Assembly (NCBI GenBank): GCA_003160115.1
Contig: PLQL01000033.1
Location: forward strand, 53,699-103,069
Origin: Acidimicrobiaceae bacterium
GTDB lineage: Bacteria > Actinomycetota > Acidimicrobiia > Acidimicrobiales > RAAP-2
DNA: 49,371 bases
Direction: 5' to 3'
How positions within the stretch are numbered: position 1 is the stretch's first letter; the number at the start of each line of letters is the position of its first letter. This document shows, piece by piece, positions 8,060-26,977 of this stretch. The notes under the pieces are model-generated. The model was not told the DNA's origin. It saw only the letters and a list, made by a program, of their open reading frames with translations, and did not search any database. The position numbers were made by a program, and so were the translations under genes.

Positions 8060-8182
8060 CTACATCCCTTCTTTTCCCATGATACATGCTTTTCGAAATA
8101 AATGGAACGATGCCCTCCACATATCGCTATACTAATTGACAAGTGGAGTTACCTTCTCCGTTTATCCCCCCTGGAGGTCGCA

Positions 8183-9688
8183 ATGTCAGTCGAAGAACTA
8201 CCCGTACTACTTGAGCCAACTCTCGAGAACGAATCCGCGAACGAGAAGTACCACCGGCGCAGGTGGTGGATACTCGCCGTTATTGGTATCGCCCAGCTGA
8301 TGGTGATCCTGGACGGCACGATCGTCAACATTGCCCTACCCACCGCGCAACACGCGTTGCATTTCTCCAACTCCGACCGCCAGTGGATCGTTACCGCGTA
8401 TTCACTCGCCTTCGGCAGCCTCCTTCTGCTCGGTGGACGTATTTCCGACTACATCGGTAGGAAGAATGCCCTCATTACCGGACTCGTCGGTTTCGCACTC
8501 GCTTCGGCGCTCGGCGCCGCGTCCATCAACTTCACGATGCTCGTTGTCGCACGCACCGTCCAAGGCGCATTTGGAGCGCTCCTGGCACCGGCGGTTCTCT
8601 CGCTTCTCACGACGACCTTCACGAACCCCGATGAGCGGGGCAAGGCCTTTGGCATCTACGGCGCCATCGCGGGCGCCGGTGGTGCGCTGGGGCTCCTACT
8701 CGGCGGCATCCTCACTTCGTACGCCTCGTGGCGTTGGACGCTCTTGGTGAATCTGATCTTCGCCGCCGTCGCGGTGACCGGAGCGATCGCGTTCCTTCGC
8801 CATGACCGTGGCACTGACCACGACCCGCTGGACTGGCGAGGTGTGCTTACGGCCACCACTGGTCTGTTCGCCTTGGTCTTCGGCTTCTCGCACGCCGAGA
8901 CGACATCATGGTCCAATCACTACACGATTGGCAGCTTCATCGTCGCCGTCGTGCTCCTTGGCGCTTTTGCCAGGATCCAGACGCGCGCGAAGTTCCCGCT
9001 GCTACCAACGAGAGTGGTGCTCGACCGTAACCGAGGTGGTTCACTCATCGCGATGCTCATCGCTGGATCGGGCATGTTCGGCGTCTTCCTCTTCCTGACG
9101 TACTACCTGCAAGAGACACTCGGATTCAGCGCAGTGCTGACGGGCGTCGCGTTCCTGCCAATGGTCGTGTCACTGTCAATCACGGCCCAGTTGTCAAACA
9201 TCGTGCTGCTGCCCAAGATCGGACCGCGCCCACTCATTCCCGTTGGCATGCTGATGTCGGCCGGAGCCCTATTGATGCTCACGCACTTAGGCGTCTCGAG
9301 TTCGTACCTCTCGAGTGTGTTTCCCGCCCTGGTACTCCTCGGACTCGGCATCGGCCTCGTCTTCGCGCCGGCGATCAACACCGCCACTGCGGGAGTCGAA
9401 CCACACGATGCCGGAGTCGCGTCGGCGTCGGTGAACACCTCCCAGCAGGTTGGTGGCTCAATTGGTACGGCACTCCTGAACACGCTGGCGGCGAGTGCGG
9501 CGACGTCGTTCTTGATCGGCAAAGCCCCCACGAAACTCAACGTCGAACTCGCGAACGTGCACAGTTACACGTCCGCGTTCGGTTACTCGGCGATCATCTT
9601 CCTCGTGGGCGCCGTGCTCACGGGCCTGATCCTGCGTTCTGGCGCACCCAGGATCCCCGAGTCCGCCTCACCCGCCATCGTCCACTGA
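8183..9688 (+). CDS. MFS transporter, DHA2/EmrB-QacA-like
   Basis: ATG after CTGGAGG RBS; multi-TM; AQLMVILDGTIVNIALPTAQ, LLGGRISDYIGRKN, ADxHDAGVASASVNTSQQVGGSIGTALLNT-like motifs. Confidence 0.94.
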   Translation: MSVEELPVLLEPTLENESANEKYHRRRWWILAVIGIAQLMVILDGTIVNIALPTAQHALHFSNSDRQWIVTAYSLAFGSLLLLGGRISDYIGRKNALITGLVGFALASALGAASINFTMLVVARTVQGAFGALLAPAVLSLLTTTFTNPDERGKAFGIYGAIAGAGGALGLLLGGILTSYASWRWTLLVNLIFAAVAVTGAIAFLRHDRGTDHDPLDWRGVLTATTGLFALVFGFSHAETTSWSNHYTIGSFIVAVVLLGAFARIQTRAKFPLLPTRVVLDRNRGGSLIAMLIAGSGMFGVFLFLTYYLQETLGFSAVLTGVAFLPMVVSLSITAQLSNIVLLPKIGPRPLIPVGMLMSAGALLMLTHLGVSSSYLSSVFPALVLLGLGIGLVFAPAINTATAGVEPHDAGVASASVNTSQQVGGSIGTALLNTLAASAATSFLIGKAPTKLNVELANVHSYTSAFGYSAIIFLVGAVLTGLILRSGAPRIPESASPAIVH

Positions 9689-9724: not shown

Positions 9725-9941
9725 CGTGAGCTCGCGGCCGACGGCCTGCTCGAGACCAGTTTTGTGAGGTGAAAGACCTCTTCACGGAACGATGGCGACC
9801 CATTCACCGTGAAGAAAGGTCGTGTCGGTACGATGGGGGCTCGGGATTTGGCGATCCCGGCGGTGGCTATAATTGAACCCCCAAGTAAATTCCGAGCGAG
9901 TCTGCCCGACGCGAACGCTCCCCAATCGAGAGGAACCCGCG

Positions 9942-11183
9942 GTGAACCCATTCGAAGAACTCGAGTCCAACGTGCGCTACTACTGCCGGCGCTGGCCGGC
10001 CGTCTTCTCGAGCGCCCATGGTGCGACCTTGGTCGACGAAAACGGCGTTGAGTACCTCGACTTCTTCGCGGGAGCGGGCGCCCTTTCCTACGGACACAAC
10101 AATCCGGTGCTTGTCGAGGTCGCGATCCAGCACTTGCGCGAGGGCAGGCTACTGCACAGCCTTGACACTTTCACCGTAGAGAAGCGCGCCTTCCTTGAAT
10201 CAATGCAGCGTCGTATTCTTGAGCCTCGTCAACTCGACATGGTGATCCAGACCGTGGGACCAACCGGCGCCACGGCCGTGGAGGCCGCACTCCAGTTGGC
10301 CCAGCGCATCACCGGTCACCGCGCCGTCGTCGGTTTCGAGGGCGGCTACCACGGCATGACGTACCGCGCCGCTTCGATCTCTGCTTCCATGGCGGGACGA
10401 GAGACGAGCGCCCACCTCAAGGACTTCGTCGCGTTGCCTTACGTCGCGAACGTCACTGAGGCTGACCTTGAACTCCTAGCCCAGACCTTGCGAACCAGCG
10501 TCAACGGCCAGAAGATTGGCGCACTCATCATCGAACCCACGCAAGGTGAAGGGGGAGCCCGACCGTTTGACCCCGCATACCTACGGGCGATTCGCGAGCA
10601 GTGCAGCGAACTCGGCATCCTCGTCATCGCCGACGAAGTCCAGGCGGGTGTCGGGCGCACCGGTCCGTTCTTCTCCTTTGAAGGTTCGTCACTCGATCCC
10701 GACATCATTTGCCTGTCCAAGTCCATCAGCGGCCTCGGGCTTCCAATGGCGATCAACCTGGTACGTCGTAGCCTCGACACGTGGGCACCCGGTGAATTCT
10801 CGGGCACGTTCCGCGGCAACAATCTGGCCTTTGCGACCTCCGCCGCGATGATCGAGACGTACTGGACTGATTCGGAGTTGGAAAAGGGCACCGAGCAGCG
10901 CGGTCTCATCGTTCGAGACTCGCTCCACCAGATGGCCGACACCTACGGCGAAGGCTCCTTCGTCGTTCGAGGCAACGGCCTGCTCTGTGGTCTGGACGTG
11001 GGCAACACCGAACTCGCCGACGACATCGCCCGCAATGCGTTTGACCAACACCTCATTGTTGAGACGTGTGGCGCCGGCGACACCACTGTCAAGCTTCTCA
11101 CGCCATTGATTATCGACGAGGACCAACTTAGCGAAGGCCTGGACCGACTGAGCGACGCGGTCGCACACGCTTCCTCGCGTTGA
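9942..11183 (+). CDS. dat: Diaminobutyrate--2-oxoglutarate aminotransferase (EctB/Dat-like)
   Basis: NPFEELESNVRYYCRRWPAVFSSAHGATLVDENGVEYLDFFAGAGALSYGHNNP...LHSLD...GPTGATAVEAALQLA; probable GTG start. Confidence 0.85.
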   Translation: MNPFEELESNVRYYCRRWPAVFSSAHGATLVDENGVEYLDFFAGAGALSYGHNNPVLVEVAIQHLREGRLLHSLDTFTVEKRAFLESMQRRILEPRQLDMVIQTVGPTGATAVEAALQLAQRITGHRAVVGFEGGYHGMTYRAASISASMAGRETSAHLKDFVALPYVANVTEADLELLAQTLRTSVNGQKIGALIIEPTQGEGGARPFDPAYLRAIREQCSELGILVIADEVQAGVGRTGPFFSFEGSSLDPDIICLSKSISGLGLPMAINLVRRSLDTWAPGEFSGTFRGNNLAFATSAAMIETYWTDSELEKGTEQRGLIVRDSLHQMADTYGEGSFVVRGNGLLCGLDVGNTELADDIARNAFDQHLIVETCGAGDTTVKLLTPLIIDEDQLSEGLDRLSDAVAHASSR

Positions 11184-12607
11184 ACCCGAACTGGCGAGAT
11201 TTCGTCGTCACTGTCGACGAACGAGGACTCTCAACGCTGGTCTCGGCCGCAACCTGCGCCGTCGAGAGCCTGGCGCGACCCCGCGGGCCACGTTCGAATC
11301 TGACGCCGGCAGCCCTGCATGAACTGATTTGGTCCACGGAGATCTGCCCCGAAACGGGCCGCGAACTCACTGAAGTTCTCCATGAACTCGGACAGACGGT
11401 GTGGTCACACGGGGTCGTGCCAAGTGACCCCGCTTGTGTCGCCCACCTACATCCGCCCACCCTGGTTCCCGCAGTCGTCACCGAACTCGCCATCGCGGCC
11501 TCCAACCAATCCATGGACTCCTGGGACCAGTCGCCTTCGGGCACCGAGGTCGAACTGCACCTCTTGGATTGGCTCGCCGACTTGATGGGGATGCCGGTGA
11601 GCGGCTCTGGGATCATGACTTCTGGCGGTACCGCCTCAAACGTGCTCGCCATGACCCTCGCGCGCTCCTGGGCGGCCCGTCGCCTCGGTCTTGACGTGCT
11701 GAAGACTGGACTGCCCGAGCAAGCGCGCGCGTGGCGAATCCTGTGTTCGGACCAGGCCCACTTCTCGGTTCAGCGCGCCGCCGCGCAGCTCGGCCTCGGT
11801 CGCGACGCCGTCATTGTCGTCACCTCAGAAGCCAGTGGCATCATGAGCATCGATAGTCTGGACCAGACGTTGGCGAATCTCGCGGAGCTGCATTTAGAAC
11901 CGATTGCCATCATCGCGACCGCCGGTACGACGGACTTGGGCGTGATCGACCCCCTTGAAGAGGTCGGGCGACGAGCTCGCGACCATGGAGCGTGGTTCCA
12001 CGTCGACGCCGCAGTCGCCGGCGCATTCCTCCTCTCCGAGAACTTGAGAACTCAACTCAAGGGCATCGATACAGCTGATTCGGTCACCGTTGATTTCCAC
12101 AAACTTTGGTGGCAACCCTTCAACGCCAGTGCCCTCGTGGTGCGCGACGTCGATCAATTCGAACTCTTACGGGTGAAATCCAACTACCTCGACCGTGGCG
12201 ATGAAATCGAAGGCATGATCAACCTCGTCGGTCGTTCCCTTGACACTTCACGTCGATTTGACGCGGTCAAGGTTGTCGCGACCCTTCGCACGCTGGGTCG
12301 TGAGTCCATGGCCTCGATGCTCGAACATCTCGTCGACCTGACTAACTATGCGGGCGCTCGTATCGCGGAGAGTCCACAATTCGAACTGGTGGCCCCTCCC
12401 GCCTCAGTCATGTGCGTTTTCGAGGTCCGTGGTGCCAACGGTGACGATCTGCGTGGCATTCAACAACGTCTGCTCGCCCGCGGGGAGATGGTACTTGGGC
12501 GCACCGAAATCAAGGGCCGGGCCGCGCTGAAGTTCACGTTCATGAATCCACTTGCCACTTATGACGACGTCGATCGACTCATCGCGATGGTAACCGAAGA
12601 AATATAG
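11180..12607 (+). CDS. ddc: PLP-dependent decarboxylase, probable L-2,4-diaminobutyrate decarboxylase
   Basis: Group II decarboxylase motifs (SGGTASNVLAMTLAR, HVDAAVAGAFLLS, DSVTVDFHKLWWQPFNASALVVRD). TTG start overlaps the upstream stop (TTGA). Confidence 0.82.
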   Translation: MNPNWRDFVVTVDERGLSTLVSAATCAVESLARPRGPRSNLTPAALHELIWSTEICPETGRELTEVLHELGQTVWSHGVVPSDPACVAHLHPPTLVPAVVTELAIAASNQSMDSWDQSPSGTEVELHLLDWLADLMGMPVSGSGIMTSGGTASNVLAMTLARSWAARRLGLDVLKTGLPEQARAWRILCSDQAHFSVQRAAAQLGLGRDAVIVVTSEASGIMSIDSLDQTLANLAELHLEPIAIIATAGTTDLGVIDPLEEVGRRARDHGAWFHVDAAVAGAFLLSENLRTQLKGIDTADSVTVDFHKLWWQPFNASALVVRDVDQFELLRVKSNYLDRGDEIEGMINLVGRSLDTSRRFDAVKVVATLRTLGRESMASMLEHLVDLTNYAGARIAESPQFELVAPPASVMCVFEVRGANGDDLRGIQQRLLARGEMVLGRTEIKGRAALKFTFMNPLATYDDVDRLIAMVTEEI

Positions 12608-13793: not shown

Positions 13794-15005
13794 CTAAACC
13801 TTGGCCGCGAGCGATTCCAGGTAGTAGCGAATCTGGATCGCTACCGCCGCACCTTCGCCAACCGCCGAGGCGATCTGTTTGGTCGAACCAGCTCGAACGT
13901 CGCCCGCCGCAAACACGCCCTCGACGTTGGTTTGGAACATGTGATCAGTAGTGAGAAAGCCTCGCTCATCGACCGCGAGCGTGCCGTTGAGGAATCCAGT
14001 GTTGGGGTCAAGTCCGATGAAGACAAACGCTCCCGACGTATCGTGCGTGACCTCCTTTCCGTCACGATTGACGGTGATCGACTCGAGTTTTCCCGACGAG
14101 TTCGCGTTGAAAGATTGCACTTTGGCGTTACACCACACGGTCATATTGGCGTGATTCAAGACCTTGTCCTGTAGCAACTTGCTCGCGGTCAATTTGTCAA
14201 TCGCCTGTAGGACGGTCACGTGATCGGCAAATTGTGTAAGAAAAAGTCCTTCCTCGAGTCCGCTGTTTCCACCACCAACAATGGTCACGTTCTTTGCGCC
14301 TTTATAGAAGGGTCCGTCGCACGTGGCACAAAAATGGATACCAGCACCAATGAGGTCGGCCTCACCTTCGGCGTCGGTTCGACGGTAGGTCGACCCCGTG
14401 GCGACCAGCACCGCTCGAGCTCTGAGCGAATCCCCAGTCGAGAGGTCCACGCGCAGGAAGGGTTCATCGCGCGTGATTGCAGTCACCGCAACAGCTTGAA
14501 GGATCTCGACACCATAACGCTCGGCTTGACGGATGATGCGGTCAGCTAACTCCGCGCCCGACACTCCGTCGGGAAAGCCCGGATAGTTGTCGAACCGTTC
14601 GGTGACACCCGCTTGGCCGCCCGGCGCTGATTTCTCAACCACGAGGACCTTGGAGTTCTCTCGGGCTGCGTAGATGGACGTCGTGAGGCCCGTGGGACCG
14701 CCGCCCACCACGACAACGTCGTACTCAGTATTCGACGCGGAACGAGTAAGGCCAATGCGGTCCGCGAGTTCGTCATTCGTGGGTTCAGTCAGGAAGGAAC
14801 CATCGGGAAAGATGATCGTCGGTATGACGCGCTTACCGTCGTTACGTGACTCCACCTCGTCGATCGCCTCAGCGTGTTCTTCGAGGTCGATCCACTCGTA
14901 GGGGATTCGATGAGAGGACAGGAATTGCTTGGCCCGCCGGCAGTCGGGACACCAGCTCGCACCATAGACAATTATCGGGTCGGTAGTTTTTGAGTGATCT
15001 GACAT
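13794..15005 (-). CDS. Glutaredoxin/mycoredoxin-like domain fused to thioredoxin-reductase-like FAD oxidoreductase
   Basis: N-term YGASWCPDCRRAKQFLSSHRIPYEWIDLEE; then VVVGGGPTGLTTSIYAARE, CATCDG redox motif, VTIVGGGNSGLEE, GVFAAGDVRAGSTKQIASAVGEGA. Confidence 0.93.
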   Translation of the reverse strand: MSDHSKTTDPIIVYGASWCPDCRRAKQFLSSHRIPYEWIDLEEHAEAIDEVESRNDGKRVIPTIIFPDGSFLTEPTNDELADRIGLTRSASNTEYDVVVVGGGPTGLTTSIYAARENSKVLVVEKSAPGGQAGVTERFDNYPGFPDGVSGAELADRIIRQAERYGVEILQAVAVTAITRDEPFLRVDLSTGDSLRARAVLVATGSTYRRTDAEGEADLIGAGIHFCATCDGPFYKGAKNVTIVGGGNSGLEEGLFLTQFADHVTVLQAIDKLTASKLLQDKVLNHANMTVWCNAKVQSFNANSSGKLESITVNRDGKEVTHDTSGAFVFIGLDPNTGFLNGTLAVDERGFLTTDHMFQTNVEGVFAAGDVRAGSTKQIASAVGEGAAVAIQIRYYLESLAAKV

Positions 15006-15609: not shown

Positions 15610-16527
15610 GTGGACCTCCAAAAAGTAATCTTGTACTACGGGTTCACGCCCCTGGAGGATCCCGAAGCTATTCGACTCTGGCAAGAAACACTCTGTCGGA
15701 CTCTTGGTCTCAAGGGTCGTATCTTGATCTCGAAGCACGGCATCAACGGCACGTTGGGTGGCGAGATGTCTGCTCTCAAGAGATACGTGCATCAGACGAA
15801 GAATTACTCCGGTTTCAAGACGATCGACTTCAAGTGGTCCGACGGCGCCGTCGATGACTTCCCGCGACTGCGGGTGCGGGTTCGCGACGAAGTGGTGTCC
15901 TTTGGAGCAGCCGATGAGATCAAGGTCGACTTGAATGGCATCGTCGGAGGTGGGACTCGCTTGACACCGACCCAAGTACACGAACTCGTCGCACAGAGAG
16001 GTGACGAGGTCGTCTTCTTCGACGCTCGAAACGCCTTCGAGGCGAGGATCGGAAGGTTTAAAAACGCCGTGGTGCCGAGCGTCGAGACGACGCGCGAGTT
16101 TGTCCATGAGATCGATAACGGGAAATTCGACCACCTGAAGTCTCGGCCCGTCGTGACGTACTGCACCGGTGGAATACGATGCGAAGTTCTTTCGTCATTG
16201 ATGAAATCGCGCGGGTTCGAGGAGGTCTACCAACTCCAAGGTGGCATCGTGCGCTACGGGCAAGAGTTTGGCGACCGAGGCCTTTGGGAAGGTTCGCTCT
16301 ACCTCTTTGACGCACGGATGAACCAGGAGTTCGGTGAAGAATCGAAGGTCCTCGGTACTTGCGAACGCTGCGACGAACCAACCAGCAAGTACTACAACTG
16401 TTCGAATCTGGCATGTCGAACCCTGATTCTGCTCTGTGCCACGTGCGCCACGGACAACCAGAGTACGGATTGCCTCGCGGACCACGCCGCCAACCATGAG
16501 CCGAAGGGCGAACTCCGAGCCCACTGA
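15610..16527 (+). CDS. trhO: Rhodanese-related tRNA uridine hydroxylase TrhO (YceA-like)
   Basis: [17 protein letters not shown]...[20 protein letters not shown]...[37 protein letters not shown]. Confidence 0.93.
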
Positions 16528-18328: not shown

Positions 18329-18589
18329 CTACTCGTTCGACTTGTCCTGTTGGTACTTCTCGAAAACGTCCAAAAGTCGCGACAAGGCTTCAGCCGGCAA
18401 GTCCTCGGGGCCGACTGATCCGCTGATCGCGATGGTGATTCTCATCTGTTCGAGGTAGGCCGAACAAGCCTGACAGGCTTCCAGGTGACGCTCGAGACGC
18501 CGCCGATCGCGTCCGCTGAGTGCGCCTTCCAGATAGTCACTCACGAGGGCGACCGCTTGGTGACACGTGATGTCCTTAGTCAGTGCCAT
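18329..18589 (-). CDS. Zinc-finger (zf-HC2) anti-sigma factor
   Basis: CHQAVALVSDYLEGALSGRDRRRLERHLEACQACSAYLEQMR (HxxxCxxC); overlaps the sigma gene end. Confidence 0.88.
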   Translation of the reverse strand: MALTKDITCHQAVALVSDYLEGALSGRDRRRLERHLEACQACSAYLEQMRITIAISGSVGPEDLPAEALSRLLDVFEKYQQDKSNE

Positions 18590-19176
18590 GAGTCCCCTCC
18601 TTTCAACTTTCCTTCCAGCGCCTCGCGGATCTTGGCTCGGCCTCGGTGCAACAGAACGCGTGCATTTGCCTCGGAGATTTCAAGTAACTCAGAAACCTCC
18701 CTGGTAGATAGTCCCTCGACGTCGCGAAGCGTTACAACCGATTGCTGAGGTTCGGGTAAATCCCGTATTGCGCTTCGGCACGCCTCCAAGACTTCGGCAT
18801 TGGCCAACTTGTCGTCTATTAGTTCAGTAAAGGGCACCGGAGCCTCGCGCCACATTCCGGCCTCGTTGAAACGAGCACTCGACACCGGATCTACCGGGTC
18901 CACGTTCACGACGCGGAACTCTCGTGTTCCAGTCTTGCGTGCACGATTCGCGGCAATTCGAAAGAGCCAGGTCTTGAAGGACGAGCGACCTTCAAACTTT
19001 TCGAGGCCCTTCATGACGGCGATCCAAGTGTCCTGGGCAACGTCCTCGGCGGAAGACTCGGTCTTCACGTAGTATCGCGCAAGTCGAACGAGAGAAGATT
19101 GATAGCGCTCTACGAGATCAGTGAACGCGTCGCGATCACCACCCAGTATTCGCTCGAGCAGAACTTCGTCCTCCAT
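18580..19176 (-). CDS. ECF-family RNA polymerase sigma factor
   Basis: DEVLLERILGGDRDAFTDLVERYQSSLVRLARYYV...VAQDTWIAVMKGLEKFEGRSSFKTWLFRIAANRARK...VVTLRDVEGLSTREVSELLEISEANARVLLHRGRAKIR. Confidence 0.95.
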   Translation of the reverse strand: MEDEVLLERILGGDRDAFTDLVERYQSSLVRLARYYVKTESSAEDVAQDTWIAVMKGLEKFEGRSSFKTWLFRIAANRARKTGTREFRVVNVDPVDPVSSARFNEAGMWREAPVPFTELIDDKLANAEVLEACRSAIRDLPEPQQSVVTLRDVEGLSTREVSELLEISEANARVLLHRGRAKIREALEGKLKGGDSWH

Positions 19177-19427
19177 ACACCTAGGGTAGTTCGCCCATCG
19201 GCTCGTAACATTATTTCGTTTAGCGACACTGTAGACGTGAGTTTTTGTATCTCTCGTGTGCAAGCCGCCGCAACTCACTGACGACATGATGAGTTCTTTC
19301 GTTCTGCCTAACTCGACTTGACCGATTAGTCGACACTCGTTGAGTGTGTACATCGCATCTCGCTGTAACACCTCGTAGCCAACCGAGCACTGTTACCAAG
19401 TAGCACATCCAACCCAAGGAGAACATC

Positions 19428-25249: not shown

Positions 25250-26977
25250 GTGATCGGTCTACTCTTCATCGGTTTCGTGGCGGGGATCATCGCGGGTATC
25301 TCTCCTTGCATCCTGCCCGTGCTGCCCGTGGTTCTGGTGGGCTGGACCGCTCCGGTCGAGGACGTCGAACACCCCTTTCGCGCACGTCGGCGTCGTTCGG
25401 CCACGGTCATCGCTGGACTCATCATCAGCTTCAGCCTGATCATTGCCGCCGGTTCGGCCGTTCTCAGCGCTCTCGGTCTTCCCCAGGATCTTCTGCGCGA
25501 CGTGGGTATTGGTCTACTCATCCTGTTCGGTATTGGCCTACTGGTTCCCCAGGTCGAACAACTACTGGAGCGACCTTTCGCTCGGATTCGCGCGCGCGCA
25601 CCCAGCGGCAACGGATCCGCCTTCGTATTGGGTCTCGGACTTGGCGCGGTCTTCGTCCCGTGCGCCGGCCCGGTGCTCGCCGCGATCTCGGTACTCGGCG
25701 CGCGCCACCACGTCAGTTTCTACAGCGTGCTGCTGAGCCTCTTTTTCGGTGCCGGCGCCGCGCTACCCCTTTTCGCGATAGCCCTAACTGGCGACCGGTT
25801 AATCGAAAGGAACCGTCGACTCTCGCAACGTGCAAGAAAACTGCGTCCGGTGGCGGGCGTGTTGTTGATCCTTATGGCGTTGGGCATCATCTTCAACGCC
25901 TTCAGTGGTATTCAAAAATTCGTCCCGGGCTACACGAATGCGCTTCAACAGCACCTCGAGGCCAACAAGTCCACTTACGAAGCGCTCCAGAAACTCAAAT
26001 ACGGCACGGTGGGAAGCGGCTCACTCGCTTCGTGCGAGACGGCAGCCGCGACTCAACCCGTCTCTACGATACAAAAGTGTGGCGTGGCGCCCGAATTCAC
26101 CGGCATCGTCAAATGGCTCAACACTCCCGGCGACACGCCATTGACTCTCCGCGAACTTCGCGGTCACGTGGTACTCATCGATTTCTGGACCTACTCGTGC
26201 ATCAATTGTCAACGTTCGCTCCCGCACGTCGAGGCCTGGTACGCGCGATACCACAAGTACGGACTTGACATCGTAGGCGTCCAGGCACCGGAATTCGCCT
26301 TCGAACACGTGATCAGCAACGTGAGGAGTGCCGCCAAGAGCCTGGGTGTGAAATACCCCATTGCCGTGGATAACAATCTGGCAACGTGGACTGCCTACAC
26401 GAATAACTACTGGCCGGCCGAATACTTGATCGACGCACAGGGCGTCATCCGTCACGTCGACTACGGGGAAGGCGACTACAGCGGCACCGAGTCACTGATC
26501 CGACAATTGCTCCTAGCGGCGAACCCGACTGAGAAACTTCCCCCACCCACCAGCGTCGCGAACCGCACGCCGACCCAAGAGACCAGCCCCGAGTCATACT
26601 TGGGCTACGACTACGCATCTGAGTCCTACCTAGTTGGTAGTCAACTGAGTCAGAACCAGGCCGCGGTCTACCACGCACCGTCGAACATCCCCGTGGGGAA
26701 TTTCGCCATGGCTGGCGAATGGTACTCAGGCCCTCAGCAGATCAAGGCTGTCGCCGACGCGAAGATCAACATCAACTTCCAAGCCAACGACGTCTATCTC
26801 GTCATGAGCGGTAACGGCACGATCACTGAGACCTTGAACGGAAAGGCTTACCAAACGGTCTCTGTCTCGGGTTATCCCCGTCTCTATACGTTATTCAAGA
26901 ACAAAGACGACGTGAACGGGCTTCTAGGACTCTCCTTCTCGAAGGGTCTCGAAGCCTACGACTTTACGTTCGGTTGA
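25250..26977 (+). CDS. dipZ: DipZ-like CcdA/thioredoxin (TlpA-like) fusion
   Basis: CcdA TM domain GISPCILPVLPVVLVGW, then LIDFWTYSCINCQRSLPHVEAWYARY and a C-terminal beta domain. Confidence 0.92.
   Translation: MIGLLFIGFVAGIIAGISPCILPVLPVVLVGWTAPVEDVEHPFRARRRRSATVIAGLIISFSLIIAAGSAVLSALGLPQDLLRDVGIGLLILFGIGLLVPQVEQLLERPFARIRARAPSGNGSAFVLGLGLGAVFVPCAGPVLAAISVLGARHHVSFYSVLLSLFFGAGAALPLFAIALTGDRLIERNRRLSQRARKLRPVAGVLLILMALGIIFNAFSGIQKFVPGYTNALQQHLEANKSTYEALQKLKYGTVGSGSLASCETAAATQPVSTIQKCGVAPEFTGIVKWLNTPGDTPLTLRELRGHVVLIDFWTYSCINCQRSLPHVEAWYARYHKYGLDIVGVQAPEFAFEHVISNVRSAAKSLGVKYPIAVDNNLATWTAYTNNYWPAEYLIDAQGVIRHVDYGEGDYSGTESLIRQLLLAANPTEKLPPPTSVANRTPTQETSPESYLGYDYASESYLVGSQLSQNQAAVYHAPSNIPVGNFAMAGEWYSGPQQIKAVADAKININFQANDVYLVMSGNGTITETLNGKAYQTVSVSGYPRLYTLFKNKDDVNGLLGLSFSKGLEAYDFTFG

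Follow-up and report, generated by a model that had tools for sequence, protein, structure and literature searches.

A glutaredoxin-thioredoxin reductase fusion that looks like a compact relative of AhpF from a soil or bog actinobacterium

Gene layout and domain anatomy

The window, which is the whole 49,371-nucleotide stretch of DNA analysed here, carries on its minus strand a gene that joins a glutaredoxin (Grx)/mycoredoxin domain to a thioredoxin reductase (TrxR)-like flavoprotein. The product, from a soil or bog actinobacterium, looks like a compact relative of AhpF that probably uses NADH; it ties a small disulfide-reducing protein permanently to the flavin enzyme predicted to recharge it. 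The gene has the following features:

13794..15005, minus strand: glutaredoxin/mycoredoxin-thioredoxin reductase-like fusion, 403 residues, ATG start at 15005
14757..14975, minus strand: N-terminal glutaredoxin/mycoredoxin domain, residues 11-83 (PF00462; TIGR02200; PDB 2lqo)
14940..14951, minus strand: CPDC redox pair (WCPDC), residues 19-22 (from the sequence; both cysteines in 80/80 members)
13806..14732, minus strand: FAD/NAD(P)-disulfide reductase domain, residues 92-400 (PF07992; TIGR01292; fold search)
14319..14330, minus strand: CATC redox pair beside FAD, residues 226-229 (from the sequence; kept in 80/80)
14259..14276, minus strand: intact GGGNSG dinucleotide-binding loop, residues 244-249 (sequence, alignment)
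14187..14207, minus strand: QAIDKLT at the site of HRRDGFR in E. coli TrxB, residues 267-273 (alignment)
13848..13889, minus strand: GSTKQIASAVGEGA segment, residues 373-386 (STKQ and GEG invariant across the family)

Profile search called both domains within the single reading frame, namely Glutaredoxin (PF00462) at residues 11-66 (E 8e-13) and Pyr_redox_2 (PF07992) at residues 95-385 (E 2e-47), confirming the one-frame fusion of a CPDC glutaredoxin/mycoredoxin with a CATC TrxR-like protein that the preliminary description had reported. No NCBIfam equivalog reached its cut-off for this protein: TRX_reduct (TIGR01292), the best-scoring of the family profiles, gave 280.7 bits against 343.45, AhpF (TIGR03140) 244.5 against 502.9, and mycoredoxin (TIGR02200) 75.3 against 89.5. 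The N-terminal domain matches Rv3198.1 (PDB 2lqo, E 3.5e-14), and the C-terminal domain matches bacterial TrxRs at ~36% identity. By PF00462 search, the fusion holds the sole glutaredoxin domain of its own MAG (86% complete), which encodes, apart from the fusion, an ordinary TrxB whose HRRDSLR motif is intact (locus L111).

An AlphaFold2 model of the fusion, built with 63 family sequences, has a pLDDT of 90.9 and a pTM of 0.84. Foldseek search against the PDB revealed the intact E. coli AhpF as the first and second matches (4o5q and 4xvg), with 410-413 aligned columns that span the redoxin plus the reductase, followed by stand-alone TrxRs with ~310 aligned columns. These full-length top matches of the model point to an AhpF-like architecture with one redoxin fold, at a full-length identity to AhpF of only ~29%.

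Family, gene neighbourhood and cysteine-less relatives

A search for related loci gave 80, and 80 distinct sequences of the family were compared. The carriers come mainly from Actinomycetota MAGs, Acidimicrobiales-type and others, together with Chloroflexota; dozens of genomes encode the protein over its full length, with identities of about 50-83%. The fusion was present in 20-odd of 61 relatives, with a patchy distribution inside the genus. Both CxxC pairs are intact in all 80 sequences, the interdomain linker is always 10 residues long (80/80), and GGGNS, CATCDGPFY, R371, STKQ and GEG show little or no variation. A fusion made by chance or by misassembly was rejected because of the full-length recurrence, the co-conserved pairs and the constant linker. 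The Grx-TrxR fusion is a widespread family, and the tests that define AphF-type enzymes, TrxB and FFTR leave it outside all three groups. A search of the open-access literature, with subscription journals outside its scope, found no paper that had described a Grx-TrxR fusion of the low-Mr kind from bacteria.

Some individual loci deserve mention. The fusion at L002 is 82% identical and has the same sigma and anti-sigma genes around it; its public record is titled Candidatus Saccharibacteria, but it is probably a mislabelled Acidimicrobiales-type MAG. Variant motifs occur at L107 (CPDS) and L109 (CPEC). The divergent relative L108 (G213:C96) has two tandem CPDC glutaredoxin domains ahead of the reductase, a layout that resembles the double redoxin of AhpF, reached by a different route.

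Upstream of the fusion in the window, and on its strand, are a SnoaL-like gene at a distance of ~130 bp and an ECF sigma/anti-sigma pair at 3.3-3.6 kb:

18329..18589, minus strand: zf-HC2 anti-sigma factor, RsrA-like below cut-off (PF13490; TIGR03988 28.7 bits against 62.5; synteny)
18580..19371, minus strand: ECF sigma factor, partner of this anti-sigma factor (profile search, synteny)

At L005, L007, L009 and L011, the homologous pair immediately precedes the fusion, with an anti-sigma gap of 4 bp, and at the more distant L046, L053, L052 and L065 a homologue lies nearby in opposite orientation. No SigR-type promoter (GGAAT-N16-20-GTT) was found upstream of the fusion; the pattern occurs 6 times window-wide, against 5.3 by chance. 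Methionine sulfoxide reductase genes, named from reading the sequences rather than from HMMs, adjoin the fusion on the same strand in several relatives, with MsrB directly upstream (L028, L031, L037 and L038) or MsrA downstream (L032). At L029 and L059, a homologue of CcdA-TlpA-type transmembrane reductases follows directly downstream on the same strand. All of these neighbours in relatives would suit a role in the repair of disulfides and of oxidised proteins. No ahpC-type neighbour or operon partner was seen in the fusion loci read; the window's own genome encodes PrxQ-type and Prx6-like peroxiredoxins, typed from their motifs.

Elsewhere in the window, 25250-26977 encodes a CcdA/DsbD transmembrane domain fused to a TlpA-like thioredoxin and a Thioredoxin_10 domain, and is homologous to the downstream neighbours at L029 and L059. 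A TrhO-type oxygen-dependent tRNA uridine hydroxylase (rhodanese) at 15610-16527 is divergent to the fusion and overlaps a longer antisense reading frame. An MFS efflux-like gene (8102-9688) lies upstream of a diaminobutyrate transaminase gene and the L-2,4-diaminobutyrate decarboxylase-like gene that follows it (9873-12607; 335 bits against a cut-off of 900 for the latter), a set that possibly serves 1,3-diaminopropane synthesis.

The Grx-like/TrxR-like core also occurs, at 33-37% identity to the fusion, behind a response-regulator domain (L101-L106 and L114; 557-594 residues) or a cNMP domain (L118), these N-terminal domains being named by reading the sequence. The NCBI annotation names them response-regulator/glutaredoxin-like/thioredoxin-reductase fusions and cNMP-domain thioredoxin reductases. 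They share with the Grx-TrxR fusion the GSxK(R/Q)xASAVGEG segment, but differ in the additional N-terminal regulatory domain and in the loss of both redox pairs, which are missing from both halves in 8/8 proteins examined (for example, CPDC to SPSS and CATC to GAAQTEA). In a reductase-domain tree, they are nested in the fusion group, with SH-aLRT values of 91 for the enclosing branch and 100 for their own clade, and weak deep support. Judged from these sequences, they look like descendants that lost both cysteine pairs. This coupled loss, though a single event, suggests that the two pairs form one functional unit. Having neither pair, these proteins probably do not act as ordinary disulfide reductases, whatever their usual annotation says.

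Coenzyme site, predicted relay and candidate thiol partners

Alignment with TrxB places the H-R-R...R residues of the E. coli enzyme on Q267-A268-I269...T273 of the fusion, within the stretch VLQAIDKLTASKLL (residues ~265-278). The NADPH 2'-phosphate motif is therefore missing, as the preliminary description had claimed, and no HRRxxxR lies elsewhere in the protein in any of the 80 distinct members. Set side by side with AhpF and TrxB, the fusion reads GGGNSGLEEGLFLTQFADHVTVLQAIDKLTASKLLQDKV; the strand ends with LIHRRDGFR in TrxB, LLEFAPEMK in AhpF and VLQAIDKLT in the fusion, so that Q267 aligns with the glutamate of LLEFAP. The segments flanking this site (GGGNSG before, LLQDK after) are AhpF-like. 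Across the family, position 267 is Glu in 44 members, Gln in 27 (the window protein included), Ala in 6, Val in 2 and Cys in 1, and is thus acidic or amide in 71 of 80. Positions 268, 269 and 273 carry no basic residue in 48 members, one in 14 and two in 18.

In Rossmann folds, the classical NADH pattern is an acidic or amide residue that ends the second β-strand, with no arginines. The arrangement GGGNSG...(E/Q)...LLQDK matches AhpF and not TrxB, and on this ground NADH is favoured as the donor. As E. coli AhpF also lacks HRRxxxR, the absence of the motif has a known precedent and is not odd in itself. AhpF depends on NADH and relays electrons to AhpC through its N-terminal redoxin (PMC12288474, PMC8945050).

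Two other donors have to be weighed. The fusion could be a variant of the NADPH-dependent TrxR, with NADPH bound by other basic residues and the glutaredoxin acting as a tethered thioredoxin, in line with TRX_reduct being the nearest profile by score and with the 18 doubly basic members. We regard this as unlikely, given that 48 members, the window protein among them, lack basic residues at positions 268, 269 and 273 and that residue 267 is so commonly acidic or amide. Nevertheless, because the window protein has Gln rather than Glu at 267 and because of the doubly basic members, some of the family, such as those with R268 and R/K273, may use NADPH. A ferredoxin- or F420-dependent reductase of the FFTR/DFTR type with a tethered redoxin is highly improbable: in the structure-sequence search, 6gna-6gnd, which we take to be FFTR/DFTR-type chains, matched far more weakly (E ~1e-24 to 1e-26) than NTRs (1e-64). 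FFTRs likewise lack HRRxxxR, but non-NTRs are defined by the absence of NAD(P)H motifs (PMC10880999), and we rejected this identity because the dinucleotide-binding GGGNSG loop is intact and (nearly) invariant. Of the suggestion in the preliminary description that NADH or another donor replaces NADPH, the NADH part thus gains indirect support from the AhpF-like segment, tempered by the Gln and the doubly basic members, whereas ferredoxin or F420 does not.

We propose, with reasonable though not full confidence, that the fusion is a single-chain AhpF-like disulfide reductase relay. NADH, or less likely NADPH, would reduce FAD, which in turn would reduce the adjacent CATC pair; a domain rotation would then carry the electrons from CATC to CPDC in the attached glutaredoxin/mycoredoxin domain, and the reduced CPDC would act on protein disulfides or on mixed disulfides with low-molecular-weight thiols. 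As a predicted activity, the self-contained flavin-to-glutaredoxin relay envisaged earlier has good support: the domain anatomy fits it, no family member has lost either CxxC pair, and the fold resembles that of AhpF. From sequence we infer the preference for NADH, the direction of the electrons between the pairs and the substrates, for which methionine sulfoxide reductase B, peroxiredoxins, the CcdA-type membrane reductase and, in hosts that make mycothiol (MSH), mycothiolated proteins are candidates.

Mycothiol had already been named as a possible target. Genus members have MshC homologues, in most at ~400-433 bits, below the curated cut-off (CysS-like matches score ~260), and MshA homologues that score ~350-380 bits over the full length, the one in the window's MAG reaching 304; these too fall below the curated cut-off, and other glycosyltransferases score no more than 112. 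No mycothione reductase (Mtr) was found in the sampled genus members, the best score being 257 bits against a cut-off of 635. MshC was counted only where the score was well above ~330 bits; all control genomes gave matches, most of them being CysS paralogues. The window's own MshC homologue (G000:C25:13351-14326) is split over two frames with one stop, in pieces covering 10-104 and 138-385, the result of misassembly or else a pseudogene. Among 247 genomes of the class, the fusion occurs in 14, an Mtr-like gene in 58 and MshC in 127 (128 with this fragmented copy). MshC accompanies the fusion in 14/14 carriers, again counting the fragmented copy, and is present in 114/233 others (Fisher p 9e-5, uncorrected for relatedness).

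It is possible, if somewhat doubtful, that the fusion is a bacterial counterpart, for mycothiol, of thioredoxin-glutathione reductase (TGR), in which the fused mycoredoxin would directly reduce mycothiol disulfide and mycothiolated proteins and replace the missing Mtr. The MshA- and MshC-like homologues in a genus without Mtr, the constant presence of MshC in the class carriers, 13 of 14 of which lack an Mtr-like gene, and a glutaredoxin domain nearest to mycoredoxins are all consistent with such a role. However, 78 MshC-positive genomes of the class have neither Mtr nor the fusion, and the Mtr contrast within MshC-positive genomes is weak (p 0.066); it falls short of what the genus level suggested, genus members without the fusion being likewise without Mtr. 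The MshA, MshC and TIGR02200 scores all lie below their cut-offs. Outside the class, moreover, the Actinomycetota G071, G145, G167, G291, G294 and G297 and most Chloroflexota carriers show only CysS-like MshC scores, and Mtr-like genes (470-535 bits) occur in 3 of 28 carriers checked, namely G213 of this class, G279 and G282. With so many carriers lacking MshC, we rejected mycothiol as the general substrate of the family and kept it for this class; the earlier suggestion fits the genus, where mycothiol is a plausible partner and not the defining substrate.

Joined together, these ideas would make the fusion a bacterial low-Mr analogue of TGR, an NADH-driven mycoredoxin reductase that keeps mycothiol reduced in Acidimicrobiia-type actinobacteria without Mtr and whose redox switch would be an ECF sigma/zinc anti-sigma pair. 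The cysteine-less response-regulator/TrxR and cNMP/TrxR fusions would then descend from it as their catalytic ancestor; that the whole combination holds is rather unlikely. If true, a one-protein relay would feed NADH into the thiol redox of these uncultured actinobacteria and of many Chloroflexota, parallel to NADPH-TrxB, provide one answer to mycothiol recycling in mycothiol makers without Mtr, and suggest an origin for the cysteine-less fusions.

Comparison with known systems

The fusion shares with AhpF an N-terminal redoxin followed by a TrxR-like reductase, with CxxC in both, as well as GGGNSG, the absence of HRRxxxR and a KQ...GEGA C-terminal segment. The latter had been described as not of the E. 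coli type, which stands against TrxB but not against AhpF, which, like the response-regulator/TrxR fusions, has the K(Q/R)...A.GEG type. The two differ in that the fusion has one Grx/mycoredoxin fold (CPDC) compared to two tandem Trx folds (CHNC) in AhpF, and in the reductase pair, CATC against CPHC. In the reductase-domain tree, the deep branches that place the fusion relative to TrxB and AhpF are weakly supported, and the branch leading to AhpF is very long.

With TrxB (TIGR01292), the fusion has in common the reductase fold, CATC and the FAD and dinucleotide motifs, GGGNSG corresponding to the GxGxxA/G loop, and its reductase part is 36% identical to D. radiodurans TrxR (2q7v). It differs in the attached redoxin, the lack of HRRxxxR, a score below the equivalog cut-off and the presence of a separate TrxB in the genome. 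Compared to FFTR/DFTR, where both NAD(P)H motifs are lost, the fusion keeps the glycine-rich loop.

The TGR enzymes have a high-Mr TrxR fold, a C-terminal selenocysteine pair and a different reductase mechanism. Despite these differences, they resemble the fusion in layout, since TGR of animals and flatworms carries an N-terminal Grx fused to thioredoxin reductase (PMC3530482). The CPDC motif is also that of TRP14-like redoxins, and the human TRP14-type protein reduces L-cystine (PMC8945050). Finally, the N-terminal domain of the fusion aligns over nearly its full length with the mycoredoxin of M. tuberculosis (Rv3198.1/Mrx1), but it scores below the TIGR02200 cut-off, has a CPDC active site and is tethered rather than free.
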